Below, piece by piece: positions 15,265 through 47,795 of a stretch of 64,000 nt of DNA (position 1 is the stretch's first letter; each line of letters starts with the position of its first letter). A program made the position numbers and the translations under genes. This DNA is from Blastococcus sp. HT6-4 (GTDB lineage Bacteria; Actinomycetota; Actinomycetes; Mycobacteriales; Geodermatophilaceae): NCBI RefSeq assembly GCF_039679125.1, contig NZ_CP155551.1, forward strand, positions 744,001 through 808,000, given 5' to 3'. The notes beneath the pieces are model-generated. The model made no database searches. It saw nothing but the letters and a program-made list of their open reading frames with translations, and had not been told where the DNA came from.

Positions 15265-15294
15265 CTCATCGGCGGACGGGTCGATCATCCTGAC
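15265..15294 (-). promoter_or_regulatory. sigma-28-type promoter for fliM
   Basis: Minus strand: GTCAGG (15289-15294), exactly 15 bases, then GCCGATGAG (15265-15273). The pattern matches the other flagellar promoters in the window. Transcription should begin about 15258, one or two bases before GTG 15257. Confidence 0.65.
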
Positions 15295-15360
15295 CGGGGG
15301 GCGCCGTCCGGCCGTGCCGGCAGGGGACGGCGTGGCACGTGGTGCCGGTGGGGCGCGTGA

Positions 15361-15390
15361 GGGGTGCCCTCCGTGATCGGAGGGCACCCC
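15361..15390 (-). terminator. terminator-like hairpin between fliL and fliM
   Basis: A perfect 13-bp stem (GGGGTGCCCTCCG with CGGAGGGCACCCC) and a TGAT loop. It should block read-through from motA-motB-fliL, leaving fliM dependent on its own promoter. No T-run is present, as is common in GC-rich actinobacteria. Confidence 0.7.
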
Positions 15391-15460
15391 TGCGTGGTCG
15401 TGCTGGGCGCTACTGCGTGACGTGCTCGGTCGAGTACGTGGCATCCGGTCGGACGTGGTC

Positions 15461-15529
15461 GGCGGTGACGATGTGCGCTGCGTGGGAGTTTCCGGAGCTG
15501 AAATCCCCACCCACGGCACATCGTCCGCC
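15461..15529. repeat. long imperfect palindrome in fliM-fliL gap
   Basis: GACGATGTGC (15467-15476) pairs perfectly with GCACATCGTC (15516-15525), flanked by GGCG/CGCC. Inner arms (GTGGGAGTTTCC with GCTGAAATCCCCAC) extend the pairing, for about 69 bp in all. The sequence is less GC-rich than its surroundings. The 15270-15797 gap holds no convincing gene. A minus-strand frame ending at 15410 has a last few codons (YSTEHVTQ) resembling the FliL C-terminus (YYTEYVTQ), perhaps a decayed duplicate. Confidence 0.5.
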
Positions 15530-15797
15530 TGGCCCATGCGCTCGTACCTCGACGGACGAGAGCGGCACCCATGATGTCGGTGTCCACGTCGAGCGCGACC
15601 CGGAGCACCACGGCCTGCGACTCATCCGGCCCCTGCCGCACCTGCAACGTGACAGGGGGCCTCGGCTCACCCGGTGGTGGGTAGGGGGCGCCGGCTCGCA
15701 TCAACCGGTCGACGAGGCGCTCCATCCAGCTCCGTGGACCGTGCATGGCTGGTGAGGCGGGATGACCCGGACATGACCGGTACCATGACGTCTCGGA

Positions 15798-16271
15798 TCA
15801 TTGGGTGACGTACTCCGTGTAGTAGATGCCCATGACCATCGGGACCCCGTCGGTGGTGTAGGCCTCGATGATCTTCTGCTCCAGGGACTCCTTCAGCGCG
15901 TCCCGGGCGTTGGTGACGTCGGCGGGGTTCGCCTGCGAGAAGGTGGAGATGATCGCGTCGTAGGCCTTGGCGCCGTCGACGCCGCCACCGCCGTGGCCGC
16001 CGGCGGCGGCCTCGACCGTGTAGTCCAGGGTGATGCCGATCTTCAGGTAGCCACCGCCGGCGAGGTTCACCGCGATGGGCTCCAGCGCGGTGTAGCCGCC
16101 GTGCTCCGGTGCCGCGGCCTCCGCCTCGCCCGATCCGGCGAAGAGGAAGAAGTACGCGGCACCGGCCCCGGCGAGCAGGACGACGGCCAGCATCAGGAAC
16201 AGCTTCTTCTTGCCGCCCGTGCCCTCGGTCTCCTCGCCCTCCGCGGGGGCGTTCTTGTCCTTCTTGCTCAT
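15798..16271 (-). CDS. fliL: flagellar basal body-associated protein FliL
   Basis: A 157-residue protein starting MSKKDKNAPAEG. It has one transmembrane helix (about 23-43) and a periplasmic-type domain. Landmarks are LEPIAVNLAGGGYLKIGITLDY and the C-terminal helix-strand ending YYTEYVTQ. FliL surrounds the stator and supports torque. A His/Gly-rich insert (GGHGGGG) sits mid-domain. Its ATG overlaps the motB stop as ATGA. The neighbouring motAB pair supports stator association. Confidence 0.92.
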   Translation of the reverse strand: MSKKDKNAPAEGEETEGTGGKKKLFLMLAVVLLAGAGAAYFFLFAGSGEAEAAAPEHGGYTALEPIAVNLAGGGYLKIGITLDYTVEAAAGGHGGGGVDGAKAYDAIISTFSQANPADVTNARDALKESLEQKIIEAYTTDGVPMVMGIYYTEYVTQ

Positions 16272-17173
16272 TCGGTCACTCCCTGGTCGGCGGCGGCGAG
16301 GCCGGGCAGCAGTGCGTTGGCCTCTGCCGAGGCGGTGGACAGGACGACGATGTCGACCCGGCGGTTCACCGAGATGGCGGTGGGGTCGGACTCGGGCACC
16401 AGCGGCCGGGTCGACGAGTAGCCGTTGGCCGACATCCGGGGCTGCGGGACGCCGCGGCCGCCCAGATGGCGCACCACGGTCGTGGCGCGGTAGGCCGACA
16501 GCTCCCAGTTGGACGGCCACATCCCCCCGGGGGTGACGGCCAGGTGGTTGGCGTGTCCTTCGACGGCCATCTGGTTGGGCAGCCCGGTCAGGGTGGGGGC
16601 GATCGCGTCGAGGATCGCGGCCCCCTCCGGGCGCAGGACGGCGCGCTCGGCGTCGAACAGGACCGCGTCGGCCACGATGTGCACGACCAGCCCGCGCTCG
16701 TCGATCTCGTAGCGGGCCGCACCGGCGTGACCGGCCGCGGCCAGCGCCGCCTCGATCCTGGCGCGGGCCGCGGCCAGCTCGTCGTAGGCGGCCGCGGCCT
16801 CGGCGGCGATTCGCTCGGCGCGCTGCATCGCGGCCTCCGCGGCGGCCGCGTCGACCTCGGCCTGCTGCACCGTGGTGTCCGGCGGCATCGCCGAGGCGAT
16901 GTCGATGACACCGGGCAGCCCGTCGAGCACCGCGCCCTCGGGGGTGGCGCTGGTCTGCACGCTGACGGGGGTGCCGAGGGTCTGCGCGAGCCCCTTGGCC
17001 AGGGCGGCGAACTTGGCCTGGTCGACCTGGCTCATGGCGAAGAGCACCACGAACAGCACGAACAGCAGCGTCATCATGTCCGCGTAGGACACCATCCACC
17101 GCTCGTGGTTCTCGTGCTCCTCTTCCTCGTGCTTCTTGGCCCGGCGGCGGCCGCCGTGGCCGCCGCCGCTCAT
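16268..17173 (-). CDS. motB: flagellar stator protein MotB
   Basis: A 301-residue protein. After a charged His/Glu/Arg N-terminus comes the single helix WMVSYADMMTLLFVLFVVLF, with the proton-carrying Asp at position 32. A plug/linker and coiled segment (about 95-150, Ala/Glu-rich) follow. The OmpA-type peptidoglycan-binding domain (VEGHANHLAV, NWELSAYRATTVVRHL, NRRVDIVVL) anchors the stator. An Asp in the helix argues for proton rather than sodium coupling. It is about 58 bases downstream of motA. Confidence 0.94.
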   Translation of the reverse strand: MSGGGHGGRRRAKKHEEEEHENHERWMVSYADMMTLLFVLFVVLFAMSQVDQAKFAALAKGLAQTLGTPVSVQTSATPEGAVLDGLPGVIDIASAMPPDTTVQQAEVDAAAAEAAMQRAERIAAEAAAAYDELAAARARIEAALAAAGHAGAARYEIDERGLVVHIVADAVLFDAERAVLRPEGAAILDAIAPTLTGLPNQMAVEGHANHLAVTPGGMWPSNWELSAYRATTVVRHLGGRGVPQPRMSANGYSSTRPLVPESDPTAISVNRRVDIVVLSTASAEANALLPGLAAADQGVTE

Positions 17174-17231
17174 CGGTCCGCCCCGCTGGCGGCCGGTGGT
17201 GCGCCACCGGCCGGTGGGCGCGCGAGACGGC

Positions 17232-18002
17232 TCACGCCGCCTCCTTGGCGAGCTCGCTCGGCGGGATCAGCGAGTTGAGCTTCAGGCGGACCGCCCGCGG
17301 GCTGGTGCCGGCCTGGATCTCGGCGATCCCCTCGACGAGCAGCTCCATCTGCGCGGCCTGCAGCTCGCTGACCCGGAGGATCTTCGCGCCCATCGGCAGG
17401 AACCAGAAGTTCGCGGCCATGACGCCCCACAGCGTCGCGATGAACGCGGCGGCGATCATCGGGCCGAGCGACTCGGGGTTGTTGAGGTTCCCCATGACGT
17501 TCATGAGGCCGACGATGCAGCCGACGATGCCGATGGTCGGGGCGTAGCCGCCCATCGTGTTCATGAACTTGGCGGCGACCTTGTCCTCGGTCTTCTTCGC
17601 CGAGATCTCGCTCTCCAGGACCGCGCGCAGCTCCTCGGGGTCGGTGCCGTCGATGCCCATCTGCAGGCCGCGCCGCAGGAACGGGTCCTCGATCGCCTTG
17701 ACCTGCGCCTCCAGCGCCAGCAGGCCCTCCTTGCGGGCCTTCTCCGCGAGGCTCACCAGGGTCTGGATCTGGTCGGTCGGCGGCGGCACCTTGGCCGGCG
17801 TCAGGGCCATCTTGAACCAGCCCGGCATCTTCTTGAGGTCGTCCATCGTCTGGCCGGACATCGCCGCGCCGAAGGTGGCGACGACGACCAGGATGATCGC
17901 CGGGAGGAAGATCAGCGACATCGGGTCGGCGCCCTCCATGACCATGAAGACCAGGAGGGCGACGAGCGAGACGACGAATCCGATCAGGGTGGCCGGATCC
18001 AC
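17232..18002 (-). CDS. motA: flagellar stator protein MotA
   Basis: A 256-residue protein with four transmembrane segments (about 5-22, 32-50, 153-172, 183-200). The cytosolic loop carries LVSLAEKARKEGLLALE and DPFLRRGLQMGIDGTDPEEL, the MotA/TolQ signature. MotA and MotB form the ion channel that drives rotation. The start GTG 18002 lies three bases after the flbD stop. The conserved Pro in helix 3 (GGYAPTIGIVGCI) is present. Confidence 0.95.
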   Translation of the reverse strand: MDPATLIGFVVSLVALLVFMVMEGADPMSLIFLPAIILVVVATFGAAMSGQTMDDLKKMPGWFKMALTPAKVPPPTDQIQTLVSLAEKARKEGLLALEAQVKAIEDPFLRRGLQMGIDGTDPEELRAVLESEISAKKTEDKVAAKFMNTMGGYAPTIGIVGCIVGLMNVMGNLNNPESLGPMIAAAFIATLWGVMAANFWFLPMGAKILRVSELQAAQMELLVEGIAEIQAGTSPRAVRLKLNSLIPPSELAKEAA

Positions 18003-18005
18003 GGG

Positions 18006-18287
18006 TCAGCGCTCCTCTCGGGTCGGGAAGGGCACGACCGACGAGTCGCTCGGGTGGTGCTGAGGGGGTGCCGGGCGGTAGGTGCCCCGGTCCATCTCGT
18101 AGGACAGGGCGAGGATGCCGGCGCGGTACTCGCGGATCTCCTGGAGCACCTCGTCCACGCTCTCCTTCACCACGTACTTGGTGCCGTCCGCGAGGAAGGC
18201 CACCGTGTCCGGGTGGCCCTCGACCTTCTCGATGAGGTCGGGGTTCAGCGCGAACTGGTCGCCGTTCAGGCGCGTCACTCGGATCAC
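18006..18287 (-). CDS. flbD: FlbD-family flagellar protein
   Basis: A 93-residue protein (GTG start) beginning VIRVTRLNGDQFALNPDLIEKVEGHPDTV. It matches the small FlbD family (swarming motility protein SwrD in Bacillus), which raises stator-driven torque. The core ends about residue 65; the tail (PAPPQHHPSDSS) is disordered. It heads the motA-motB-fliL transcript behind a strong sigma-28-type promoter. This name is unrelated to the Caulobacter FlbD NtrC-like regulator. Confidence 0.85.
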   Translation of the reverse strand: MIRVTRLNGDQFALNPDLIEKVEGHPDTVAFLADGTKYVVKESVDEVLQEIREYRAGILALSYEMDRGTYRPAPPQHHPSDSSVVPFPTREER

Positions 18288-18341
18288 GGGTCGGTCCTCT
18301 TGCTCGGTGGTGGCCGCAGAGCGGGCTGGAACGGCAGTCTT

Positions 18342-18371
18342 GTCATCGGTTCCGGCCGCCGGTTCCTTGAG
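18342..18371 (-). promoter_or_regulatory. sigma-28-type promoter for flbD-motA-motB-fliL
   Basis: Minus strand: CTCAAG (18366-18371), 15 bases, ACCGATGAC (18342-18350). The -35 and spacing are identical to those upstream of fliC and fliA. The predicted leader to the flbD GTG is about 48 nt. Confidence 0.75.
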
Positions 18372-18398
18372 CCGAACGCGCTGGCCGGGGGGCTGAGA

Positions 18399-18437
18399 CG
18401 GACGGCCCGGTCACCCTGCGGGTGACCGGGCCGTCCG
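18399..18437 (-). terminator. strong hairpin terminator after flgE
   Basis: A perfect 18-bp stem (18399-18416 with 18420-18437) and a three-base loop TGC. It ends the flgB-to-flgE transcript just before the flbD promoter. Confidence 0.85.
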
Positions 18438-18501
18438 CCGGTGGCCTACCTCCAGGGGCCCGCCACCGAACTCACCGGTGACGGGGGAGGGAGAGCCGTC
18501 A

Positions 18502-19743
18502 TCAGCGCTTGAGGTTCACCAGGTCCTGGAGGATCTCGTCGGATGCGCTGATCACCCTGCTGTTCGCCTGGAAGCCGCGCTGGGCGACGATCAGGCTGGT
18601 GAACTCCTCGGAGAGGTCGACGTTGGACATCTCCAGGGCTCCGGAGACCAGATTGCCCCGGCCGCCGGCCCCGGCGATGCCGATCATCGCCACACCGGAG
18701 TTGTCGCCGACGCGGAAGGCCGAGTTGCCGGCCTTCTCCAGCCCGCTGGGGTTGTTGAAGGCGGCCATCGCGAGCTGCCCCAGCGGCTGGCGTAGCCCGT
18801 TGGAGTAGATGCCGGTGATCGTGCCGTCGTTGGAGAGCTGGAACGACTGCAGCGAGCCCAGCGCGTAGCCGTTCTGCTCGGGGGCCGTCACCTCGCTCGA
18901 GCCGGCGAACTGGCTGATCGTCCCGAGGTCGACGGCGACCGGGCCGGGCCAGCCGGCGGCGCCGGGGGCGAAGCTGATCCCGCCGGTCGGAGCGGTCATC
19001 CTGCCCGCCGTGTCGAAGGTGACCGTGCCGTCGAACGCGGTGCCGTCGGCGTTGGTCAGCGGGAGGGCCGCGCCGCCGTTGTTCTGGACGGTCAGGCTCC
19101 AGGTGTCCGCGGCCGTCTTGCTGAACGTGTAGGTGACCGACTGGGCGACGCCCTGCGCGTCGTACATCGTGGTCGGGGTCTGCACGAACGACCCGATCGG
19201 GGCGGCGGCGTTGAGGTTGCCCTGCAACGTGCCGGTCCCGGTGGCGCGCGGGTTGACGATCTGGCCGTAGGGCACGGTGAGGTTGCCGATCGGGCCGTTC
19301 GGGTTGATGGCGCCGTTGGCGTCGGCCACCCAGCCCTGCAGGATGCTGCCGTCCGGGGTCACCAGCCGGCCGTTGGCGTCGAAGTCGAACGAGCCGGCCC
19401 GGGTGTACAGCTGTTCCCCGCCGGGCCCGGTGGTCACGAAGAAGCCGTCGCCCTCGATCATGAAATCGGTGGAGCGGCCGGTCGACTGGGCGGCCCCGTT
19501 CGTCCAGTTCGTGGTGACGGCGGCGAGCTTGACGCCGAGCCCGATCTGGGCCGGGTTCGTGCCGCCGCGGTCCTCGGCCGGGGCGCCGCCGGCGCGCACG
19601 ACCTGGGACAGCGTGTCCTGGAAGACCGTGGCGCTGCTCTTGAAGCCGACGGTGTTGACGTTGGCGATGTTGTTGCCGGTGACGTCCATCTTGGTCTGGT
19701 GGGCACGCAGACCGGAGATGGCGGAGAACATGGAACGGAGCAT
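18502..19743 (-). CDS. flgE: flagellar hook protein FlgE
   Basis: A 413-residue protein. The N-terminal helix MLRSMFSAISGLRAHQTKMDVTGNN and the NIANVNTVGFK motif are typical of hook/rod proteins. The C-terminus (LSEEFTSLIVAQRGFQANSRVISASDEILQDLVNLKR) forms the matching D0 coil. The large Gly/Thr-rich middle domains are hook-specific. It is the only FlgE/F/G-type protein in the window, so it builds the hook; the distal rod proteins FlgF/FlgG are not seen. It follows flgD by 51 bp and ends the operon. Confidence 0.93.
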   Translation of the reverse strand: MLRSMFSAISGLRAHQTKMDVTGNNIANVNTVGFKSSATVFQDTLSQVVRAGGAPAEDRGGTNPAQIGLGVKLAAVTTNWTNGAAQSTGRSTDFMIEGDGFFVTTGPGGEQLYTRAGSFDFDANGRLVTPDGSILQGWVADANGAINPNGPIGNLTVPYGQIVNPRATGTGTLQGNLNAAAPIGSFVQTPTTMYDAQGVAQSVTYTFSKTAADTWSLTVQNNGGAALPLTNADGTAFDGTVTFDTAGRMTAPTGGISFAPGAAGWPGPVAVDLGTISQFAGSSEVTAPEQNGYALGSLQSFQLSNDGTITGIYSNGLRQPLGQLAMAAFNNPSGLEKAGNSAFRVGDNSGVAMIGIAGAGGRGNLVSGALEMSNVDLSEEFTSLIVAQRGFQANSRVISASDEILQDLVNLKR

Positions 19744-19794
19744 CGGGGGTCTCCTCCGGGTGGGAGCTCGGGTAGGGGCGCGGGTGCGCGTCGG

Positions 19795-20217
19795 TCAGCG
19801 GGCGCCGACGTCGGTGATCCGGCCGAGCGGCACGGCGACACCACCGACGGTGGCCACGGCCTCGGCCTTGCCGGTGCCCAGGCGGACCGAGCTGACGACG
19901 CCCGTCTGCGCGGCGCCGGTCGAGTCCGTGTAGGTCACGGTCTGGCCGACCATGGCGCCGGCGCTGCTCGAGCGCTGCAGCGCCAGCATCGAGGCGTTCT
20001 GCGAGGCGATCTCCTCCAGCTTCTCCACCTGGCTGAAGGTGGCCGTCTGCGCCATGAGCTGATTGGTGTCGGCCGGGTTGCTCGGGTCCTGGTACTTCAT
20101 CTGGGCCACGAGCAGCTTGAGGAAGGTGTCCTTCCCCATCTGGTCGCCGCGGTCCACGGCGGTCGAGGCGGAGTACGTGGGCCCGCCGGCGACGGTGCCA
20201 CTCACTGCGTCCGGCAT
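19795..20217 (-). CDS. flgD: flagellar hook assembly scaffold FlgD
   Basis: A 140-residue protein with the FlgD N-terminal signature KDTFLKLLVAQMKYQDPSNP, then FSQVEKLEEI, plus a short beta segment with GQTVTYTDSTGA. It is only a minimal FlgD; many homologues have 200 or more residues with extra FLG/Tudor domains. FlgD caps the growing hook and is displaced once FliK ends hook assembly. It sits 18 bases after the fliK stop. A sigma-28-like box in the end of fliK could give it extra expression. Confidence 0.92.
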   Translation of the reverse strand: MPDAVSGTVAGGPTYSASTAVDRGDQMGKDTFLKLLVAQMKYQDPSNPADTNQLMAQTATFSQVEKLEEIASQNASMLALQRSSSAGAMVGQTVTYTDSTGAAQTGVVSSVRLGTGKAEAVATVGGVAVPLGRITDVGAR

Positions 20218-20235
20218 CGGTGGTCGGCCTCCTTC

Positions 20236-22565: not shown

Positions 22566-23008
22566 GCCGGCCCCCTCCCGCCGTCGGTGGTGCGTCCGGC
22601 GCGGCCGGTGACGAGGTCGTCGGCCGCGCGTTCCTCCGCCAGGTCGGCGGCGCGCTGCTGGGCCTGGCGGTGCCGCTCGGCGAGCCGCTCCAGGGCCTTG
22701 GTCCGCTGCGCCGCGGCGGTCCACTCGGCGCGGACCGCCTCGGCCTGCTCCGCGGACGCGGTCGCCATCGACCGCGCATCGGCGGCGTCGGTGGCGGCGG
22801 TCCGCAGCAGGACCATGGCGGCGACGAACGAGCCGGCGGGCAGCGAGCGCGGCAGCACCGCGCCGGTCAGCGCGGTCTCGTACTCGGTGGCCCGCCGGTC
22901 GGCGTCTTCGGCGGCGCCGGCGGCGGCCGCGGCGGCGGCCGCCGCCGTCCGCTCCTGCGTACGCCGCAGCTCGAGCACCGGCTGGAGCCGGAAGGCGGCG
23001 CGCTTCAT
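22553..23008 (-). CDS. fliJ: flagellar export protein FliJ
   Basis: A 151-residue, almost entirely helical protein opening MKRAAFRLQPVLELRRTQE, the FliJ pattern (F-L-LqpVLeLrr). An Ala-rich coiled coil follows, with a second heptad-rich region AEQAEAVRAEWTAAAQRTKALERLAERHR. FliJ is the coiled-coil stalk of the FliI6 ATPase that contacts FlhA. Its ATG overlaps the fliI stop by four bases, which fixes the start. Confidence 0.8.
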   Translation of the reverse strand: MKRAAFRLQPVLELRRTQERTAAAAAAAAAGAAEDADRRATEYETALTGAVLPRSLPAGSFVAAMVLLRTAATDAADARSMATASAEQAEAVRAEWTAAAQRTKALERLAERHRQAQQRAADLAEERAADDLVTGRAGRTTDGGRGPAWTE

Positions 23009-29003: not shown

Positions 29004-29033
29004 TTCATCGGCAGCCGGGCGGAACCGGCTGAC
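29004..29033 (-). promoter_or_regulatory. sigma-28-type promoter for flgB operon
   Basis: Minus strand: GTCAGC (29028-29033), 15 bases, GCCGATGAA (29004-29012). It lies in the gap between the glycosyltransferase terminator and flgB and would drive the whole 10-kb early flagellar operon. No other promoter is evident there. Confidence 0.6.
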
Positions 29034-33714: not shown

Positions 33715-33744
33715 GTCTTCGGCTGCGGAGCGGGACCCCTTGAG
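33715..33744 (-). promoter_or_regulatory. sigma-28-type promoter for fliC
   Basis: Minus strand: CTCAAG (33739-33744), 15 bases, GCCGAAGAC (33715-33723). It gives a leader of about 63 nt that contains the CsrA-like hairpin. The -35 and spacing equal those before flbD and fliA. Confidence 0.8.
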
Positions 33745-33775: not shown

Positions 33776-34738
33776 TCAGGCGGTCCTGGCGGCGCTGTCG
33801 GGCGCGGTCGACCAGGCGGTGCGCTGCTGTGGGACCGGCGCCCCGTTGCGGGCGGCCACCCGGGCGACATACGACAGCTGCTGGTTGCGCGCACGGACGC
33901 CACCGTCCGGTGCGACGGCCCGGCCCTCCCACACCTCGCTCATGGCCGCGTGCAGGAGGGTCAGGGCCCGCGCCCGCATCTGCGAGACCCGTGACAGGGT
34001 CACCCCCAGGTCCTCGGCGATGTCCGTCAGTGATTCATCACCGAAGAAATTGCGTTCCACGACCTCGTCGAGCCGGTCGGGCAACGCGCGGATCGCGTCG
34101 TGCAGGTAGCGGGCGCGTTCGCCCCGCAGGACCGCGCGCTCGGGGGACTCTCCGGTGTCGGGCAGGTCGAGCGTCGTCCCGTCGGGGCCGGTCTCGGCGT
34201 CGATGCTGACCATGACGGCCCGGTGGACGTCGACCTGCAGGTGGTCGAGCTCGCTGCGCGCGACGCCCAGGCTCTGCGCGAGCTCCTCGCGTGTGGGCGG
34301 CCGGCCGAGGCTGATGGTGAGCGCGTCGGTGGCGGCGTCGGTCCGACGGGCCGCGGCGCGCACCGACCGGCTGGCCCAGTCCCCGGAGCGCAGTTCGTCG
34401 AGGACCGCGCCCTGCAGGCGGGCCAGGGCGTAGGTGGCGAAGGAGGCGCCCGCGTCCGGGTCGAACCGGCGCGCCACCTCGACCAGGGCCACGTGGGCGC
34501 AGGACAGCAGGTCCTCGCGGCTGACGTGGCCGGGCAGCGAGATGCGGGAGGCGACGGCGTTGACGGCGAACGCCGCCAGGGGGAGGTGCTCGGTCACCAG
34601 CGCGTCGACCTCCTGGGGGGATCGCCCCTTGACCGGGTGCGGGACCCGGCCGTTCTGGGGGCGCTCACGCAACGGCCGGTCGTGCGCGGACCGCTCACGG
34701 AGGGGGCGCTCGGTCGTGAGGGAACGGACTCGGGTCAC
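33776..34738 (-). CDS. fliA: flagellar sigma factor FliA (sigma-28)
   Basis: A 320-residue protein. Region 2 (VSREDLLSCAHVALVEVARRFDPDAGASFATYALARLQGAVLDELR), region 3 (GRPPTREELAQSLGV) and region 4 (VVERNFFGDESLTDIAEDLGVTLSRVSQMRARALTLLHAAM) are complete and typical of FliA/WhiG. GTG 34738 is chosen because a sigma-28 promoter with a start near 34770 excludes the longer frame from 34831. The first 60 residues are Arg-rich and repetitive (PLRERSAHDRPLRERPQNGR). No FlgM anti-sigma gene is seen in the window. It is divergent from flgN. Confidence 0.93.
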   Translation of the reverse strand: MTRVRSLTTERPLRERSAHDRPLRERPQNGRVPHPVKGRSPQEVDALVTEHLPLAAFAVNAVASRISLPGHVSREDLLSCAHVALVEVARRFDPDAGASFATYALARLQGAVLDELRSGDWASRSVRAAARRTDAATDALTISLGRPPTREELAQSLGVARSELDHLQVDVHRAVMVSIDAETGPDGTTLDLPDTGESPERAVLRGERARYLHDAIRALPDRLDEVVERNFFGDESLTDIAEDLGVTLSRVSQMRARALTLLHAAMSEVWEGRAVAPDGGVRARNQQLSYVARVAARNGAPVPQQRTAWSTAPDSAARTA

Positions 34739-34777: not shown

Positions 34778-34807
34778 CCCGTCGGCACAAATCCTCCCGG
34801 ACTTGAG
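34778..34807 (-). promoter_or_regulatory. sigma-28-type promoter for fliA (autoregulation)
   Basis: Minus strand: CTCAAG (34802-34807), 15 bases, GCCGACGGG (34778-34786). The -10 is less perfect after GCCGA. It implies positive autoregulation of fliA. Confidence 0.65.
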
Positions 34808-34826: not shown

Positions 34827-34856
34827 CTCAACCCGCTCCGAACGGGTGCCGATGCC
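34827..34856 (+). promoter_or_regulatory. sigma-28-type promoter for flgN-flgK-flgL-fliW
   Basis: Plus strand: CTCAAC (34827-34832), 15 bases, GCCGATGCC (34848-34856). Its -35 is 19 bp from the divergent fliA -35, so one bound holoenzyme may affect the other. The predicted leader to flgN is about 74 nt. Confidence 0.7.
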
Positions 34857-36825: not shown

Positions 36826-36830
36826 TCTGA

Positions 36831-39266: not shown

Positions 39267-39337
39267 CGGCCTCCCGCGCGGCGCTCCGGCGCCGCGAGTC
39301 CGGCACCTCTTCTTCCCCGTAGTGCCCAGGAGTACCG

Positions 39338-40435
39338 ATGCCCGACCGCGTCCCGTTCCCGACTCCCGCCGACGACCGTGCCGGCATCCGCCGGCCCCTC
39401 GTGTTCGGGGGGATCCCGGAGGCCGAGGGGTGGGCGCTGGCGCCCATCACCCCGCGCGACCGCGTGCACTTCCGCGCGGACCGGGAGCTGCCGCTCGAGC
39501 AGTTCGGCCGCGAGCTGCCCGACGGCGTGTCCGTCAGCTACGACCAGGGTGACGGCCTCTACCGGGTCGACGGGGCGTGCGGCTCGGCCGCGGTCCTCGC
39601 CGACTGGGTGAAGGCCTGGTGCGCCGGGCAGGGCATCACGACGATCGGCCTGCGGGCCGAGACCAACGTCCGCCGCCGTGCGCCGCGCGACCTGCCGCCG
39701 GACTTCCTCAACGACCTGTGCCGCCACTACGGCCCGGTGAGCCTGAAACGCCTGCAGCGGAACATGAGCACGATCCGGCTGCACCTGCCCGACCCCGACG
39801 ACCTCGGGCAGCAGGTGTTCGAGTGGGTGCTCAAGGCCGTGGCGCAGTACGACGAGACCAAGTCCGTCCCGTTCGGGGCCTTCCTGGCCACCCAGCTGTC
39901 CAAGTGGGTGCACGACCTCGGGCGCAACGCCCACGGGCGCACCGCGGCCGACACCGAGCACAAGCAGCAGAAGGCGATCGCGGCCTTCATGGCGGAGCAC
40001 CAGCGCCGGCCCAGCGAGAAGGAACTGGCCGCGTTCATGGGGCAGAGCGTGGCCACGCTCCGGCGCAACTCGCAGACGGTCGCCACCCTCAACGGCCTGC
40101 GCAACCTGCAGTCGCTCGACGGCGCGCCCGACGCGACCGAGATCCTGCTGCCCGACTCCTCCGAGGCGCCCGACGAGATCATGGGGGAGGCGGAGCAGAC
40201 CCTCCTCTCGCACGCTCTCACCGCGGCCTGCCAGCCCGACCCGCAGGCGCGGCCGGACCAGCGCGCCGGCCAGCCCAACGTGCTGGGCTGGGCGACCTGG
40301 TACCTGACCACCTGGGGCGGCCAGACCAAGACCCAGCTGTCCAGCGACCTGAACACCTCGGTCCGGAACATGAACGTCTACGCCGACCGGGTCGAGAAGG
40401 CCCTCAAGGACCGGCTGGCCGAGCTCGCCGACTGA
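39338..40435 (+). CDS. divergent sigma-70-like protein
   Basis: A 365-residue protein. About 135 residues of unknown N-terminal domain precede a region-2-like segment (about 160-205, FEWVLKAVAQYDETKSVPFGAFLATQLSKWVHDLGRN). A region-3-like segment (about 215-265, AEHQRRPSEKELAAFMGQSVATLRRN with SLD) follows, and a region-4-like C-terminal HTH (TWGGQTKTQLSSDLNTSVRNMNVYADRVEKALKDRL). Pattern and order match sigma-70 factors, but conservation is low. It could be an alternative sigma factor or a sigma-like regulator. It is coded close to csrA and a flagellar cell-wall hydrolase. The family assignment is mine and unverified. Confidence 0.6.
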   Translation: MPDRVPFPTPADDRAGIRRPLVFGGIPEAEGWALAPITPRDRVHFRADRELPLEQFGRELPDGVSVSYDQGDGLYRVDGACGSAAVLADWVKAWCAGQGITTIGLRAETNVRRRAPRDLPPDFLNDLCRHYGPVSLKRLQRNMSTIRLHLPDPDDLGQQVFEWVLKAVAQYDETKSVPFGAFLATQLSKWVHDLGRNAHGRTAADTEHKQQKAIAAFMAEHQRRPSEKELAAFMGQSVATLRRNSQTVATLNGLRNLQSLDGAPDATEILLPDSSEAPDEIMGEAEQTLLSHALTAACQPDPQARPDQRAGQPNVLGWATWYLTTWGGQTKTQLSSDLNTSVRNMNVYADRVEKALKDRLAELAD

Positions 40436-40569
40436 GCGAGGACCCGTCTCCCTCACACCCCGGGATCCCGCACGTCCGGGGGGAGGCCCGCGGATCGCGG
40501 TGACGCGTGGTGCGCGGTGTGCCGAACGTGCCGGGGCGGGGCCGAAAAGCACAAAACCCGTCGTCAACG

Positions 40570-40599
40570 GGTCGATCGGGTCCCGCACCTGCCGATATC
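40570..40599 (+). promoter_or_regulatory. possible weak sigma-28-like promoter
   Basis: Plus strand: GGTCGA (40570-40575), 15 bases, GCCGATATC (40591-40599) in the gap before the next two genes. The -10 is good; the -35 lacks the TCA core. It would give a start near 40607 and a leader of about 75 nt. Confidence 0.3.
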
Positions 40600-40679
40600 C
40601 AGGTTGTGACGCCAGGTCCGAGCTCCCGCCACCACGCCTCCCCGGCGTCGGCGGCCGGACCCTGGTACCGGGACGCGCG

Positions 40680-41027
40680 GTGAGCGCGCTCCCCGCAGGC
40701 GACGCCGCCTCGCCGACGCTCGTGCCGCACTGGCTGGACGCGTCCGCGCGGGCACTGCTCGCCGCGACGGTCCGCGCGGCCCTGGACGACCGGTCCGTCC
40801 ACCCGGTCACCACGGTCCACCTGTGCGACGTGCTCACCGAGCTGCACGTGGCCGCCGCCCGCGAGGCGGTCTGGCCGGCGTCGACCGCCCGCGTCCGCCT
40901 GGCCACCGGGTGGGACGACGACGTGCTCCCGGTGCGGCTCAGCCCCGCCGAGCTGTCCGGGGTGCTGGCCCTCCCGGGTCTGCCCGAACCGCTGCGGCAG
41001 CTGCTGGCCACCGGGCGCCGCACGTGA
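40680..41027 (+). CDS. hypothetical protein
   Basis: A 115-residue protein from GTG 40680: LVPHWLDASARALLAATVRAALDDRSVHPVTTVHLCDVLTEL, then a beta-rich VRLATGWDDDVLPVRLSPAEL and a helical end. It is mostly helical with no signal or membrane segment. A frame open from 40500 is longer, but the possible promoter and composition favour the shorter start. Its TGA overlaps the next GTG, so the two proteins are co-translated and probably work together. Family unknown. Confidence 0.55.
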   Translation: MSALPAGDAASPTLVPHWLDASARALLAATVRAALDDRSVHPVTTVHLCDVLTELHVAAAREAVWPASTARVRLATGWDDDVLPVRLSPAELSGVLALPGLPEPLRQLLATGRRT

Positions 41028-41791
41028 CCTCCAGCATCTTCGGGACGGCTCCCGGGACCCGGCTGCTGCACCGGTTCCGGGGTGCGGCGGTCGACGTGGC
41101 CGACCTGCACGAGGTCGCCGCCCAGGTGCTGCCGCAGCTGGCCACCCCGCGGCTGCGCCTGGCTCTCGTCCGCCGTCCGGGCGCGGGCACGGTGCTGCAG
41201 ATGGAGGAGGACGAGCGCACCCAGGGGATCGCGCTCCACGAACTCGCCGACGACATGAGCCGGGCCGGGGTGGTGGCGAGCACCGCAGGGATCGCCGCGG
41301 CGCTGCGCACCTTCGTGGCCCGGCGTCCGGTCACCGACGCCGCCGCGGCCGGGGCGGGCGTCGCCGTCCTCGACTGGGCGGACCCCGCGCGGACGACCGT
41401 CGGCTGGACCGTCGTCGTCCTCCGCGGTCAGCACGCCCTCGTGTGGTCGCCCTCGCCCGCCGCGCGGACGGTGCAGCTGCACCGCACCCGGTCCGCGGCC
41501 ACGGGGCGGGCGCACGACGTGTCGCTGGAGATGCGGGTGGAGGGGCCGCTGGCCCTGTGGTCGCACCGCAGCGTGCCCGTGCTGGCCACGGCCGGGCTGG
41601 TCGCCCCCGAGCTGATGCTGCACCGCATCGCGGGTGCGGGGCTGGCGCTGCCGGACATGCACGTCGTCGTCACCCCGCACCGGCCGGTGGCCTGCGCCGC
41701 CCCCGGGGTGGCCCGGCGGCTGGCCGGGGAGGCCAGCGAGGCCAGCGTGACCCTGCCCTGGCGCTCGATCGTCGACCTGCCCTGGCTCTGA
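41024..41791 (+). CDS. hypothetical protein, co-translated with preceding gene
   Basis: A 255-residue protein from GTG 41024, overlapping the previous stop by four bases. It is mixed alpha/beta: a helical start (FRGAAVDVADLHEVAAQVLPQL), then strands VLDWADPARTTVGWTVVVLRGQHALVWSPSP and HDVSLEMRVEGPLALWSHRSV, and ends WRSIVDLPWL. There is no signal peptide, membrane helix or known catalytic motif. I do not recognise the family. It converges with the NlpC/VanY gene on the opposite strand, 18 bp away. Confidence 0.6.
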   Translation: MTSSIFGTAPGTRLLHRFRGAAVDVADLHEVAAQVLPQLATPRLRLALVRRPGAGTVLQMEEDERTQGIALHELADDMSRAGVVASTAGIAAALRTFVARRPVTDAAAAGAGVAVLDWADPARTTVGWTVVVLRGQHALVWSPSPAARTVQLHRTRSAATGRAHDVSLEMRVEGPLALWSHRSVPVLATAGLVAPELMLHRIAGAGLALPDMHVVVTPHRPVACAAPGVARRLAGEASEASVTLPWRSIVDLPWL

Positions 41792-41809
41792 GCCCACCGC
41801 GCGGCCGGC

Positions 41810-43849
41810 TCAGGAGATGTGGCCGTACTCCCAGTGCCACGGTTCGGGCTTCTCCCCGCCGGGGCCGGCCCAGGCCGGCTGGACGAATCCGAAGCGGCCG
41901 GCGTTCGCGGCCATCCACCGCCACTGCGGGGTGCCCGCGACGTTGACGCCGCCACCCAGGTCGATCGCCAGGGCCCACCCGTGGTTGGACGTCCCGGGCA
42001 CGGCGGCGAGCTTCGGTTTGCGGTAGTACGCGGCCACCTGGGCGCCGAACGAACGGTAGGAGTCGGTGAGCGCCAGCGGCGTGCCGAACTCGGCGGTGAA
42101 GGCGGCGTCCAGCTGCGCGTAGGAGGCCGCGGCGTCGCAGCGCAGGGCGTGGGCACCGATCCCCAGGCGGCACAGCGACCCGGCGGGGATGTGGCCGTTG
42201 GTCCAGCCACCCCACTGCGGGCTGGCCGGCCCGGGCGGTGGCACCGGCGCGCCGCAGGGGCGGGTCGTGGCGTCAGCGGGCAGCGGGGCGTTCGGCTGCG
42301 CGGGAGCGGGCAGGGTGACCCGGACGGCCGTCGAGCCGGCGACCACCGGGCGCACCGCCACCTGGTAGCTGGCCGCGGATGCGCCGATGACGTCGCCCTC
42401 GCCGAGGTACACCCCGACGTCCTGCCCGCCGGGGGAGAAGACCAGGTCACCGACCTGCAGGTCCCGCGCCGGCACCGCGGCGCCGGCCGCCCACTGGCCC
42501 GCCGGGGTACCGGGCAGGGCGTGTCCGCCCAGCAGCCAGGTGGCAGCGGTGAAACCGCCGCAGTCGTAGGTCTCCGGACCGGTGGTGCCTGCGACGAACG
42601 GCTTGCCCAGCTGGGACAGGGCATTGCTGACCGCGGCCACCGCCTCGGCGGGGAGCACGGTCACCGGCGAGCTGCCGATCACGGCCCAGGCCACCCCGGG
42701 GATCGGCCGGCCGTCGGCGTCCAGCGCCGCGGACATGCCGGCCGGCAGGGCCGCCTGATCGGCCAGTGCAGCGGCCGGAGGCGGCACGACGCCGGCCGCC
42801 GACAGGCGGTCCAGGTAGTCCTGCCAGCGGTGCACCGCCGCGTCGTTGCGCTGCTGCTGCGCGCCCGCCGCCGGGATGGAGCCGAGCCCGGCGAGCCGGC
42901 CGGAGACCGCGGGGGAGAGGTCGCCGACCTCGGCGCGGACGTCGGCCAGCACCTCCGCCGCGCGCCGATCGGCGGCGGCTGCGGCGCCGCGGGCGGCGGC
43001 GACCCTGGCGACGGCGGCGTCCAGCTCGGCGGCGCCGCGCTCGGCCCGGACCACCGCGCTCTCCAGGCCGCGCTCGGCGCGGTCGGCCAGCGCCTGGTGG
43101 TAGAGGACCCCGGAGATGGCGCTGGCGTGGTGCACGTCGAGGGCGAGCAACGGGTAGCGGCTGGTGGCCCCGGCTCGATAGAGGCCGGCGGCGCCGGCGC
43201 CCACGACGAGCTGCTGGGCCGCCACCTGCTCGCGGACGGCCCGCTCGGCCGCCAGCGCGTTCTCCAGCTCCGTACGTCGCTGGACGGCATCCGCCTCCAG
43301 CCGTCGGTACCGGTCGGCCTGGTCCAGCAGCGAGCTGCGCGCGGTCAGCGCCAGCGTGGTCGGGTCGAGCGCCGGCCCGGCGCCCTCGGGTGCGGGGGCG
43401 CCGGGCAGGACGAGTGCGAGGAGGGCGGGCAGCAGCAGCGCGCTGGTCGCGACGACCCCGAGGCGGGTGGACCAGCGGGCGCCGTTCCGCTCCGTGCGGG
43501 GGGCCGGCCGGCGGGCCGGGGTCCGGCGCACGGCGGCCCGGCCGGAGGCCGGGCGGCCACGGCCGTCGCGGGGAGCAGCCGGCGCGGTGCCGGAGCGCCG
43601 GGCGGTGACGGCGGCCCGGGCGGCCGCCAGCTGCTCGGGGGTGACGTCGGGGCGGGCGGCCATCGCCTGGCGCAGCGCCAGCGCTTCCCGCAGCGCGGCG
43701 GCCTCCGCCGGGGTCAGGGGCGGTCGGCCGGCGGACCGCGCGCCACCGGGGGCGGGGCGCTTCGCGCGGGGACGCGTCGCGGCGGTCCGGGTGGTGGTGC
43801 GGGCAGTCGTGCGGGTGACCGTGCGCCCGGATGTGCGCGCTGCAGGCAC
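41810..43849 (-). CDS. membrane-anchored NlpC/P60 and VanY (M15) peptidoglycan hydrolase
   Basis: A 679-residue protein from GTG 43849. A cytosolic Arg/Thr/Ala-rich tail (1-145) is followed by one transmembrane helix (about 150-172), a coiled coil (about 185-330), and an NlpC/P60 domain (YDCGGFTAATW with the catalytic Cys, DVGVYLGEGDVIGAS). A C-terminal M15/VanY carboxypeptidase domain ends it (DSYRSFGAQ, SNHGWALAIDLGG with zinc ligands, EPWHWEYGH). It cuts peptide crosslinks outside the cell. A TTCAAG-N15-GTCGATTGA sigma-28 site about 70 bp upstream places it in the flagellar regulon, where it may open the wall for filament or hook passage. Confidence 0.85.
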   Translation of the reverse strand: MPAARTSGRTVTRTTARTTTRTAATRPRAKRPAPGGARSAGRPPLTPAEAAALREALALRQAMAARPDVTPEQLAAARAAVTARRSGTAPAAPRDGRGRPASGRAAVRRTPARRPAPRTERNGARWSTRLGVVATSALLLPALLALVLPGAPAPEGAGPALDPTTLALTARSSLLDQADRYRRLEADAVQRRTELENALAAERAVREQVAAQQLVVGAGAAGLYRAGATSRYPLLALDVHHASAISGVLYHQALADRAERGLESAVVRAERGAAELDAAVARVAAARGAAAAADRRAAEVLADVRAEVGDLSPAVSGRLAGLGSIPAAGAQQQRNDAAVHRWQDYLDRLSAAGVVPPPAAALADQAALPAGMSAALDADGRPIPGVAWAVIGSSPVTVLPAEAVAAVSNALSQLGKPFVAGTTGPETYDCGGFTAATWLLGGHALPGTPAGQWAAGAAVPARDLQVGDLVFSPGGQDVGVYLGEGDVIGASAASYQVAVRPVVAGSTAVRVTLPAPAQPNAPLPADATTRPCGAPVPPPGPASPQWGGWTNGHIPAGSLCRLGIGAHALRCDAAASYAQLDAAFTAEFGTPLALTDSYRSFGAQVAAYYRKPKLAAVPGTSNHGWALAIDLGGGVNVAGTPQWRWMAANAGRFGFVQPAWAGPGGEKPEPWHWEYGHIS

Positions 43850-43920
43850 TGCGTCCCCCGGGCGGTCTCGACGTGACGGATGGGGCTCCTGGTGCTGCTG
43901 GGATCAGGAGCTTCCGCACA

Positions 43921-43950
43921 TCAATCGACACGCCGCGGGAGGTACTTGAA
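43921..43950 (-). promoter_or_regulatory. sigma-28-type promoter for NlpC/VanY hydrolase
   Basis: Minus strand: TTCAAG (43945-43950), 15 bases, GTCGATTGA (43921-43929). The leader to the GTG is about 65 nt. Spacing and -35 match the flagellar set. Confidence 0.6.
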
Positions 43951-44000
43951 GGACGCCCCGGAACGGCTCACCCGTCCGGGGTGGGGTGAACCTCGGGGGA

Positions 44001-44026
44001 GCGGGCGGACGCCGCCGTCCGCCCGC
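44001..44026 (-). terminator. terminator-like hairpin
   Basis: A perfect 11-bp stem GCGGGCGGACG / CGTCCGCCCGC with a CCGC loop. It lies downstream of the small gene at 44086 on the minus strand and upstream of the sigma-28 site for the hydrolase. Confidence 0.5.
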
Positions 44027-44085
44027 GGCCGTGCGGGCCGGGGGCCGGGACGGTCGGGGGGATCAGCGCCGCTGCGGACGGCCGG

Positions 44086-44277
44086 TCACGGCGCCCACCA
44101 GGCGCCGTGCCGCTGCACGAGCGGGATCCGCAGCTCACCGCCGTCCTCGGTGGACACGACGAACTCGAGCTTGGTGATGCGCACCGGTGGGCCGTCGCCG
44201 TCGGGCTCCAGCAACTGGCCGGTCGCCAGGGGCATGGGCGGCAGGACGAGGACGTCCTCGTCAGGTGGCTCGGCCAT
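44086..44277 (-). CDS. small hypothetical protein
   Basis: A 63-residue acidic protein (MAEPPDEDVLVLPPMPLATG, then VRITKLEFVVSTEDGGELRIPLVQRHG). It is mostly beta strand with no signal peptide. ATG 44277 is preceded by GAGAGGACC. The reading frame is also open to an ATG at 44310. I do not recognise the family. It lies downstream of the gltA terminator. Confidence 0.5.
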   Translation of the reverse strand: MAEPPDEDVLVLPPMPLATGQLLEPDGDGPPVRITKLEFVVSTEDGGELRIPLVQRHGAWWAP

Positions 44278-44335
44278 GCGCGGTCCTCTCCAGTGCGTGG
44301 GCTCACCCACCGTTAGGATCTCCCGGAGGGACGCA

Positions 44336-44371
44336 ACGGGCCGGGTGACCCCGGAGGGTCACCCGGCCCGT
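44336..44371 (-). terminator. terminator after gltA
   Basis: A perfect 15-bp stem ACGGGCCGGGTGACC / GGTCACCCGGCCCGT with a six-base loop, 15 bp past the gltA stop codon. Confidence 0.85.
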
Positions 44372-44385
44372 GGGACGGCCTGCGG

Positions 44386-45687
<1,302 letters not shown>

Positions 45688-45696
45688 CAGGGAGCC

Positions 45697-45702
45697 ACGC
45701 TA
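45697..45702 (-). promoter_or_regulatory. gltA promoter -10 box
   Basis: Minus strand TAGCGT, a TAnnnT -10 box, lies 9 bp before the gltA ATG (45687). The mRNA would be almost leaderless. The same hexamer precedes phoH2. No clear -35. Confidence 0.4.
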
Positions 45703-45825
45703 CTGCTTCCCACCGTGGCCGCGCGCGGGGACGCGACCAGCCGCAGCGCATCGCATCGCCCGGATCGACGGACCGATCGGGTCGCACGCCCCGGCCGTCC
45801 GGTTCGGCCGGGCGGGCCGCGGGCC

Positions 45826-47715
45826 TCACACGCCCGCCGGCTCCCGCTCCCCGGCGCCGGCGACCACCGCGGGGGCGTCGTCCCACATGGGCGAGGACAC
45901 CAGCTTCCCCAGCCGGTCGAGGGCTTCCTCGGTGAACTGCAGTTCGCCGGCCAGGGAGACGGCCGCGTGTGGCGCCTGGTTCTCCAGCCCGATGTCGCCG
46001 CAGTCGTCGGTGGTCCGGCCGAGGCCGGCCAGCAGCCCGGTGAGCAGGGTGATGCTGGCGGTCCCGTGCACGTCGTCGTCCGGGACGAAGGGCATGCTCA
46101 CCCTCAACCGCGGCCGGGCGGCGGCCAGCGCGAGCAACCGGGCGGTCCACGCCGGGTGGTCGGCCCACCGTGGTGCCACCCGGACCTGGAGGGAAGAGCC
46201 ACGGCCGCGCAGCAGCGCGGCGGTGAGGTCCCCCTCCAGCGTGCCGTCGTACAGGTCGCCGAGCGGCACGACCGCGGCCCGGGGGTCGGCGCTCGCCGTG
46301 GCGGTGGCGTTGAACGTCATGAGCAGGAGGGCCCCGTACCCGTCGTCGGTCGGGGACTCGCCCAGGTCGTCGAGGTCCGCGGCCGGGGCCGAACGGGCGC
46401 GTTCGTAGAGCTCCTCCAGCTGCGTGCGCCAGCCCGGGTTGTCGTGCACGGCGCGGACCGAGGCCCCGGCCTCGGCTCCCTCACGCCGCCGCAGGTCCGC
46501 GTCGGCGGCCAGGCGGTGCACCGTCAGGGCCAGCCGGCTCACGGTCGTGGCGGCGGGGCGCCCCGCGAGCCCGGGCGACCACCGCTGGAAGATGTGGGCC
46601 GGGTCGGTCTCGGCGGTGTCGGCCAGGCCGACCACCGGCAGGCCGAGGACGGCCGCCTCGAGCGCCGTGGTGCCGGCATACGTCGGATAGGACTCGAGGT
46701 AGATGTCGGCCAGGCCGAAGTACGGGGCGGGGTCGGTCACCCGGCCCACCGAGTGGACCCGCCCCGGGTACTTCCTGGTCAGCCGGTCCCAGTGCGGGCT
46801 CGGCTGGACCCCGACCAGGACCATCGTCAGCCGGGGCGAGAAGTGCAGCACCTTGTCGACGACGTCGTGGAGCCCGCGGCCCGAGGGGGCGGAGACCTTC
46901 CAGTCGTCGCTCACGGTCAGCGCCACGACCGCGTCGGGGTGGATGCCGAGGCGTCGGCGCACGTCCTCGGCCCCGGCCGAGGGCATCTCCTCCACCGGCA
47001 TCGGCAGGACGGCGATGCGCTCGCCGGGCACCCGGCGCAGGTCGACGTCCAGGAAGCGCACCGCCGGGCGGAGATCGCACAGCACGTCGGTGGCCCCGAC
47101 GCCGAGCCAGTACGTCAGGTCGGCGTGGTTCTCGTAGATGACCGGTGGGCGGGGCCCCGGCAGGTTCGCGGCCGCGAGGGCGACGACGTCGTACGCGTGC
47201 ACGTGCAGGACCACGACGTCGGCGCGGTCCATGTGCGCGCGCAGCTCGCGGGCCCGGTCGACGAGTGCGGGCGTCGTCGACCGCAGGTCGACCAGGGTGC
47301 CGCCCGATGCGACCGCGGCCTCCGTCAGGAGGCCGGGCACCGGGACGTCCTGGTTGGTCAGGACGACGTCGCTGGTGCGGGCGTCGCGGCTCATCCACCG
47401 CGCCGCCAGCCGGGTGTGCCCGCCGATGCCGTGCGCCTCCGACAGGACGTGCAGGACGCGACCGTTCCGGCGGTCGCCGTCGACGGTGACCGAGCCGGTG
47501 CCCCGGACGGCGGAGATGACGGTGCGCTCCAGCCGGAGATCGCTCAACAGGCCGACGGGGAGCCACAACGCGTAGTTGGCGGCCACCATGGCCGTCCTGA
47601 GCACGTTCTCCACGTCACCGCGGGCGGCGTACCGCTGCGTCATCGACACCAGGAGTTCGTAGTGCCGCCGGTTCTGGGCGAGAAGTCCCGGCTGCTCTTC
47701 CTGGGGACGGGGCAC
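45826..47715 (-). CDS. large glycosyltransferase (GT4-like), sigma-28-linked
   Basis: A 629-residue protein from GTG 47715, preceded by GGAGG at seven bases. The first half holds a GT-B-type fold: GRVLHVLSEAHGIGGHTRLAARWM, HVHAYDVVALAAANLPG, and the C-terminal Rossmann half with DIYLESYPTYAGTTALEAAVLGLPVVG (the GT4 E-x7-E-like donor site). The last 150 residues are an extra domain of unknown function. No membrane helix or signal peptide is seen. Its promoter matches the flagellar sigma-28 pattern, and amino-sugar genes lie divergently upstream, so it may add a sugar to flagellin. The acceptor is unknown. Confidence 0.75.
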   Translation of the reverse strand: MPRPQEEQPGLLAQNRRHYELLVSMTQRYAARGDVENVLRTAMVAANYALWLPVGLLSDLRLERTVISAVRGTGSVTVDGDRRNGRVLHVLSEAHGIGGHTRLAARWMSRDARTSDVVLTNQDVPVPGLLTEAAVASGGTLVDLRSTTPALVDRARELRAHMDRADVVVLHVHAYDVVALAAANLPGPRPPVIYENHADLTYWLGVGATDVLCDLRPAVRFLDVDLRRVPGERIAVLPMPVEEMPSAGAEDVRRRLGIHPDAVVALTVSDDWKVSAPSGRGLHDVVDKVLHFSPRLTMVLVGVQPSPHWDRLTRKYPGRVHSVGRVTDPAPYFGLADIYLESYPTYAGTTALEAAVLGLPVVGLADTAETDPAHIFQRWSPGLAGRPAATTVSRLALTVHRLAADADLRRREGAEAGASVRAVHDNPGWRTQLEELYERARSAPAADLDDLGESPTDDGYGALLLMTFNATATASADPRAAVVPLGDLYDGTLEGDLTAALLRGRGSSLQVRVAPRWADHPAWTARLLALAAARPRLRVSMPFVPDDDVHGTASITLLTGLLAGLGRTTDDCGDIGLENQAPHAAVSLAGELQFTEEALDRLGKLVSSPMWDDAPAVVAGAGEREPAGV

Positions 47716-47765
47716 GAGCGGGCCTCCAGAGCTCGGGGCGGGGCCGTTCCCCGTCCACCGGGTGC

Positions 47766-47795
47766 TGAATCGGCAGTCCCCGCCCCTCTGGTGAC
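47766..47795 (-). promoter_or_regulatory. sigma-28-type promoter for large glycosyltransferase
   Basis: Minus strand: GTCACC (47790-47795), 15 bases, GCCGATTCA (47766-47774). The leader to the GTG is about 44 nt. The -35 keeps the TCA core. Confidence 0.5.

Follow-up and report, generated by a model that had tools for sequence, protein, structure and literature searches.

We analyzed the promoters of the flagellar gene cluster of Blastococcus sp. HT6-4 in a window of 64,000 nucleotides (nt), which is part of a single 4,297,415-base contig (genome positions 744001–808000). Eight sites in the window, each with a TCA −35 and a GCCGAT-like −10, almost certainly serve as genuine promoters for the flagellar sigma factor FliA, as judged from their sequence and conservation. 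The whole of the data is very probably explained by a FliA promoter set that includes a leaderless subclass and short leader open reading frames (ORFs) coupled to the next gene. According to this explanation, RNA polymerase carrying FliA, a sigma factor of the sigma-28/WhiG family, would read the TCA and GCCGAT elements at a fixed distance and would switch on seven of the eight inferred flagellar operon heads (flhA, fliM, flbD, flgB, fliC, fliA and flgN, not fliD); FliA would also drive its own gene, plus some chemotaxis and signaling genes elsewhere in the genome. The leaderless subclass would comprise fliM, flhA and a gene at 40.6 kb (gene A), and elsewhere one chemoreceptor gene, one diguanylate cyclase gene and perhaps the gene of a GAF-domain protein. 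With the −10 held 9–10 nt from a GTG, transcription would begin on the start codon or no more than ~2 nt from it, and translation of these messages would have to be initiated without a Shine-Dalgarno (SD) leader. At flhA and gene A, where the stop of the leader ORF overlaps the next start (NTGA), the two frames would probably be coupled by termination-reinitiation. We infer FliA dependence, operons, 5' ends, leaderless translation and coupling from sequences, conservation, spacing and reading frame.

The initial annotation had described eight sites on both strands with nTCAnn, 15 bases and a −10 close to GCCGAT. All of them were found, with 17 bases separating TCA from GCCGAT, and CTCAAG indeed stands unchanged ahead of flbD, fliC and fliA. 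The −10 is GCCGAT at fliM, flgB, flgN and the large glycosyltransferase gene, and the other four sites are one base off. The ranks listed here were obtained with a position matrix trained on 71 sites from 18 family relatives (fliM 16, flgB 15, fliC 15, flbD 14, fliA 11), with the window excluded and sites scoring below 8.0 unused.

15268–15294, minus strand: FliA-type promoter of fliM (GTCAG...GCCGAT), matrix rank 5
18345–18371, minus strand: FliA-type promoter of flbD-motA-motB-fliL (CTCAAG...ACCGAT), matrix rank 4
29007–29033, minus strand: FliA-type promoter of the flgB...flgE operon (rod, MS ring, switch, hook), matrix rank 6
33718–33744, minus strand: FliA-type promoter of fliC (CTCAAG...GCCGAA), matrix rank 2
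34781–34807, minus strand: FliA-type promoter of fliA (CTCAAG...GCCGAC), matrix rank 3
34827–34853, plus strand: FliA-type promoter of flgN-flgK-flgL-fliW, divergent from fliA, matrix rank 1
43924–43950, minus strand: FliA-type promoter of the NlpC/VanY wall hydrolase gene (TTCAAG...GTCGAT), matrix rank 8
47769–47795, minus strand: FliA-type promoter of the large glycosyltransferase gene, matrix rank 7

Ranks 1–8 among ~128,000 window positions were exactly these eight sites, and the flgN, wall hydrolase and large glycosyltransferase sites belong to genes outside the training set. The motif was commoner than in shuffled DNA: eight positions reached at least 15 bits, whereas 60 dinucleotide shuffles averaged 0.45 such positions and never had more than 2. 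Individual shuffled positions scored as high as 21 bits.

Orthologous upstream regions were compared in the 18 family relatives; omitted from the counts were orthologues aligned only beyond residue 60 and genes of two relatives (G053, G009) outside the covered stretches. GTCA-N17-GCCGAT stands ahead of fliM in 16/16 relatives with the region and ahead of flgB in 15 of the 16 relatives with that gene, the remaining one having GTAA. CTCAA-N16-NCCGA is found at flbD in 14 of the 16 relatives with the gene, and TCAA lies at −108 to −119 of fliC in all 18, ten of them with the −10 GCCGTA. The fliA site scores at least 8.2 in 11 of 18 relatives. At flgN, the −10 GCCGA is retained in 18/18, with CTCAA as the −35 in two relatives and CTGAA in one. 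The wall hydrolase site has the same form in 4/18 relatives and the form TTCAG...GTCGAT in three more, and the large glycosyltransferase site is retained in two of the four relatives having a homologue. As a separate observation, the CTTGA that other relatives carry in the flgN −35 (window 34827–34832, plus strand) resembles the housekeeping TTGA, with the flagellar −10 retained, and the flgN promoter of these relatives is possibly a hybrid.

The interpretation of the sites as flagellar-sigma promoters with a TCA variant was supported, in that a sigma factor gene lies in the cluster, the sites head the operons of the cluster and recur at orthologous places in relatives, and similar sites precede chemoreceptor genes. 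All eight sites have TCA in place of the TAAA −35 of the flagellar consensus; we read TCA as one actinobacterial −35 variant and not as a different kind of promoter, as far as sequence comparison goes. The spacing of exactly 15 bases held in the family and not across the class, where most other genomes use TCA-N16-GCCGAT at fliM and the −35 is mostly TCA, with TAA in some genomes. The statement that all sites but one are non-coding was correct for the rest; the supposed exception, probably the fliM site, is itself non-coding, the overlapping ORF 15285–15746 (minus strand, in the gap between fliL and fliM) being matched in just one of 18 genomes. This ORF is likely not a gene, which leaves a gap of ~540 bases ahead of fliM. 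Among the weaker copies proposed earlier, those at flhA and 40.6 kb proved to be conserved. The flgD copy, which sits within the fliK frame, was retained in 7 of 15 relatives scanned, and that of the small glycosyltransferase gene had a strong form in only 2 of the 12 relatives having the gene.

The genes and elements of the predicted leaderless subclass in the window are as follows; the constant −10-to-GTG distance at fliM, flhA and 40.6 kb goes beyond the initial annotation.

14262–15257, minus strand: fliM, start GTG 15257, 10 nt past the −10
7697–9742, minus strand: flhA, conserved start GTG 9742, with a further in-frame GTG 9763 in this genome
9790–9816, minus strand: flhA promoter, GCCGAT −10 with GTACC in the −35 place, in 23/23 Blastococcus genomes
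9739–9780, minus strand: predicted leaderless 13-codon leader ORF, its TGA overlapping the flhA start GTG 9742 by 4 nt
40571–40596, plus strand: conserved promoter-like site GTCGA-N15-GCCGAT, with GCCGAT-N9-GTG in 16/18 relatives
40606–40683, plus strand: predicted leaderless 25-codon leader ORF, its stop overlapping GTG 40680 by 4 nt (GTGA)
40680–41027, plus strand: gene A, 115 residues, no assigned function, 56–83% identity in 18/18 relatives

We found an in-frame GTG 9–10 nt past the fliM −10 in 16/16 family relatives (the frame was checked in 15 together and in the sixteenth, G052, separately). Flagellar transcription starts ~9 nt after GCCGAT, so that the fliM message would begin within ~2 nt of the GTG. 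For Actinoplanes, a message has been called leaderless when its 5' end lies within 3 nt of the start codon (PMC7682106). The promoter-to-GTG spacing suggests that the fliM mRNA is probably leaderless. A class-wide search matched FliM in 54 of 394 genomes, this one included, of which 48 strong matches were retained and six with E-values above 1e-4 were dropped; the 46 genomes scored are the strong set minus this genome (G000) and a same-genus relative (G012). When the best fliM promoter was picked blind to start codons (−35 TCA or TAA, 16–18 bases to the −10), 41 of these 46 genomes, all outside the family, showed an in-frame start, located exactly 9 nt away in 26 genomes and 10 nt away in 15. 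In the first 40 class genomes, 38 reached a score of 7.6 at gap 9 or 10, as compared with 0.3% of 2000 shuffles. We also scored 18 named actinobacterial loci with a relaxed −10 and −35, at least two genomes apparently overlapping with the 46; two were without a FliM match. Of the other 16, an in-frame start at 9–10 nt is present in 12, including those of Nocardioides, Aeromicrobium, Pseudosporangium and two Arthrobacter. Apart from its start, FliM (14262–15257, minus strand) has a Pro/Ala-rich N-terminus, and the FliM proteins of many family relatives begin alike. An EIDALL-type motif, which is the CheY-binding site, is absent from the first 80 FliM residues.

Ahead of flhA, GTACC-N16-GCCGAT-N9/10-GTG is found in 23/23 Blastococcus genomes, this one included. 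In all 23 an ORF of 12–16 codons then follows, its TGA overlapping a GTG in the flhA frame by 4 nt; this genome and L145 carry an extra flhA-frame GTG 21 nt upstream. The same leader design recurs in four relatives from two further genera, one with 19 codons and one with the overlap ATGA, and in six relatives of four other genera (G037 among them) the equivalent GTG is the flhA start itself; in two relatives flhA lay outside the covered stretches. From these sequences, the predicted leaderless GTG seems older than its use for a leader at flhA. The leader peptide showed a ratio of nonsynonymous to synonymous changes (N/S) of 1.46 as compared with 2.55 expected, over 12 distinct leaders, which is a weak sign of selection at the peptide level. 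The full GGTACC (window 9812–9817, minus strand), which misfits the TCA element, occupies the flhA −35 place in 22 of the 23 Blastococcus genomes.

A leader of the same design precedes gene A in 16 of the 18 relatives, with the gap always 9, the coupled frame kept in 16/16 and a length of 19–36 codons; peptide conservation is little, and one overlap is CTGA. The two Klenkia-group relatives are without the gap-9 form. That the length drifts and the frame stays is the best evidence for leader translation, and it suggests that the gene A leader is translated. A longer frame lying over gene A (40500–41024) had no Pfam match.

The leaderless pattern was also searched for in the whole genome. [CG]TCA-N16/18-GCCGAT-N9/10-GTG occurred at nine places, as compared with none for the reversed control, and besides fliM, a chemoreceptor gene (1112347) and a GGDEF diguanylate cyclase gene (1393487) begin in frame at the GTG. 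A GAF-domain frame (L316 1–1503, minus strand; genome 857970) is coding-like from a GTG 9 nt behind CTCAAG...GCCGAT, and its coding sequence seems to begin there. The GGDEF gene (L324 1501–2640, plus strand), with its conserved FliA-type, apparently leaderless promoter, is present in 20/23 Blastococcus genomes. Its gap-9 site is kept in 18 of the 19 loci scanned, this genome included, with the −10 GCCGAT in six and a near variant in 12; L337 is without the site, and a partial GGDEF match, L343, stands outside the 19. The conservation of this site raises the possibility that the flagellar sigma factor is linked to cyclic di-GMP through the GGDEF gene. The GTG behind the large glycosyltransferase site was rejected as a leaderless start: it is out of frame, and its 47-codon frame ends on no in-frame start.

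Several observations weigh against the explanation by a FliA promoter set with a leaderless subclass. The matrix also gave at least 15 bits at seven places elsewhere in this genome, among 18 further stretches of which some had been chosen because they contained matches; because several of these places are inside genes, a matrix score alone does not make a promoter. The relatives do not count as independent samples. Seven of the 18 have a weak fliA site or none, and 15 of the 18 carry CTTGA as the flgN −35. The distance from the flagellar −10 to the transcription start is a figure from general background. At fliM, five of the 46 class genomes (L303, L305, L309, L310, L311) lack a start at 9–10 nt from the best site, four of them carrying weak sites only and the L305 site scoring 7.6 without an in-frame start, and four named loci fail (Dactylosporangium, Naasia, Microbacterium and an acidimicrobial metagenome-assembled genome). 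When gaps from −3 to 60 were all allowed to compete, 9 or 10 came out on top in only 16 of 40 genomes; this contest is ambiguous because one promoter can be matched with additional in-frame starts beyond the first, an ambiguity that the start-blind choice of promoters was designed to remove. Two Modestobacter-group relatives are without the flhA site, and in this genome neither the flhA nor the gene A site has a good TCA −35. The GTG of one GGDEF locus (L338) is not in the expected frame. Finally, five of the nine places in the genome seem to have another explanation: the large glycosyltransferase GTG is out of frame, the GTG opens only a 33-codon frame at L321, the L318 and L323 places lie inside long frames that continue upstream of the GTG, and the L315 place overlaps a putative helix-turn-helix gene in another frame.

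Further in-frame starts lie downstream in the fliM of many genomes, the stretch from the GTG to the conserved FliM core varies and is rich in Pro and Ala in many genomes, and flhA has a start of its own, with an SD-like sequence ahead in 14 of 22 genomes. One might suppose from this that the FliA promoters are real, that fliM, flhA and the gene at 40.6 kb start downstream, and that the GTG near the −10 is incidental. We consider this unlikely in view of the fliM GTG being in frame at 9–10 nt in 41/46 distant and 16/16 family genomes, and of the leader ORFs, which hold the coupled frame across many lengths.

Another alternative is that a different sigma factor, possibly the 365-residue protein encoded next to the 40.6-kb site (39338–40432, plus strand), reads those sites whose −35 is poor (GGTACC at flhA, mostly GGGTCSA at 40.6 kb). 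This protein, which shows 74–93% identity in 17 relatives aligned, bears a weak similarity to sigma factors: it matched the NCBIfam FliA/WhiG model with an E-value of 6e-7 and Pfam sigma regions 2 and 3 with E-values of 0.01–0.02, and its best match among PDB profiles was the RNA polymerase sigma factor 6pfj (E-value 0.009). The retention of GTACC at flhA in all 23 Blastococcus genomes is in line with such a division of labor. However, the similarity stays under the family cut-offs, hhalign against FliA gave a probability of 15% (E-value 0.0018), and the two Klenkia-group relatives keep the protein and yet read GTCAC at flhA and lack the gap-9 site of gene A. We regard a second sigma factor at these sites as improbable.

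Plain consensus scans proved useless for identifying promoters, as the background swamps them. The bare consensus, with its elements 18 bases apart and as many as two mismatches allowed, gave 158 window matches as compared with 195.7 expected. TCAA-N16-GCCGA occurred at 80 genome places as compared with 27 for the reversed-pattern control; as far as the part of the 80 that was viewed in context indicates, they apparently lie mostly in genes, CTC and GCC GAN sharing one codon frame. Despite this background, it is hardly credible that GC-rich codon usage and short patterns gave rise to the motif as a side effect, as the eight sites are the top eight of a matrix from other genomes, lie outside genes as delimited, and are mostly conserved at orthologous places.

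The fliA product matched Pfam sigma70 regions 2, 3 and 4, and the NCBIfam model FliA_WhiG with an E-value of 3.8e-44 and 151.1 bits, under the model cut-off of 189.6. The promoter ahead of fliA likely implies autoregulation. FliA-type promoters stand before early operons (flgB-flgE, fliM-flhB, flhA) and also before late ones, and no such promoter was found upstream of fliD in this genome. Elsewhere in the genome, three of nine chemoreceptor matches (258028, 4028753, 1112347) are preceded by a FliA-type site, the site at 4028753 standing ahead of a PAS-domain frame, and so is an OmpR-type response regulator gene (1019145). None of 57 family genomes yielded FlgM (PF04316) in a search whose control was positive in 3 of 14 known genomes. 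According to PMC2587704, FlgM is also seemingly absent from four other genera. A FlgM checkpoint triggered by export would be difficult to operate with these promoters, because the export genes themselves would need free FliA. The RsiG-type anti-sigma motif E-x3-S-x2-R-x3-Q-x3-D had no match in the window and five other stretches of this genome. A broader and speculative scheme, which we think has a slim chance of being right, is that flagellated Actinomycetia, seemingly without FlgM, express the fliM operon and flhA mainly from leaderless FliA messages, that leaderless translation and stop/start coupling gate assembly, and that a second FliA/WhiG-like sigma factor serves the subclass with the divergent −35.

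The GC content across the window is 71–77%. Flagellar genes with Pfam support are flhA, flhB, fliN, fliM, motB, motA, flbD, flgE, flgD, fliK, fliH, fliG, fliF, flgC, flgB, fliS, fliD, fliC, fliA, flgN, flgK, flgL and fliW. flgB and flgC, which share a rod family in Pfam, were told apart by gene order, from which the operons were also derived. Other genes referred to above are the following.

33776–34633, minus strand: fliA, flagellar sigma factor of the FliA/WhiG family, putative start GTG 34633
15798–16271, minus strand: probable true fliL, an open frame named by position
41810–43849, minus strand: NlpC/P60 and VanY wall hydrolase (Pfam)
45826–47715, minus strand: large glycosyltransferase (Pfam Glyco_trans_1_4), likely start GTG 47715 behind the SD-like GGAGG

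For the large glycosyltransferase, GTG 47715 behind GGAGG is the more likely start.

The promoter set itself is ordinary, being of the known flagellar/WhiG type. Less expected are the fliM promoter-to-start distance, which is fixed in most of the flagellated class genomes examined, and the leader ORFs of flhA and gene A, which vary in length and not in coupling. These features predict 5' ends nearly to the base and correct gene starts that annotation could miss. FliA promoters in Actinoplanes missouriensis, said to have been described by Jang in 2016 and Hashiguchi in 2020, reportedly follow a CTCA-N15/17-GCCGA type consensus. The promoters also offer a handle on the ordering of flagellar gene expression without FlgM, which the Kineococcus genome paper leaves open (PMC2587704). 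Our literature search, which missed most subscription papers, recognized no leaderless fliM or flhA; leaderless WhiG promoters and coupled leaders are each known singly, and their flagellar combination and depth of conservation were not found in the literature searched.

The consensus given for flagellar (FliA/sigma-28, sigma-D) and WhiG promoters in PMC8325347 is TAAA / GCCGATAA, WhiG sharing the promoter specificity of flagellar sigma factors. The Blastococcus sites have the same −10 core and a similar spacing, but their −35 is TCA instead of TAAA, and they head early operons too. A leaderless start from a FliA/WhiG-type −10 is also cited for Streptomyces whiH, a leaderless gene with a WhiG-type −10 (GCCGACAA; PMC3160421); whiH, however, is a sporulation regulator gene, and the passage that cites it names no flagellar gene or leader ORF. 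A leaderless, non-flagellar gene, atsA, is mentioned in PMC11064477. In mycobacteria, leaderless coupled small ORFs have an RTG start and an RTGA overlap with the next gene, and in one example the architecture is conserved and the peptide sequence is not (Shell 2015, PMC4633059). The Blastococcus leaders differ from these in standing on flagellar-type promoters, ahead of flhA and gene A, and in being family-wide. In the uPPE2-PPE2 pair of Mycobacterium tuberculosis, stop and start overlap by 4 nt and the downstream gene depends on the short ORF (PMC11260477); that leader is SD-led and riboswitch-controlled, whereas the Blastococcus leader is predicted to be leaderless.

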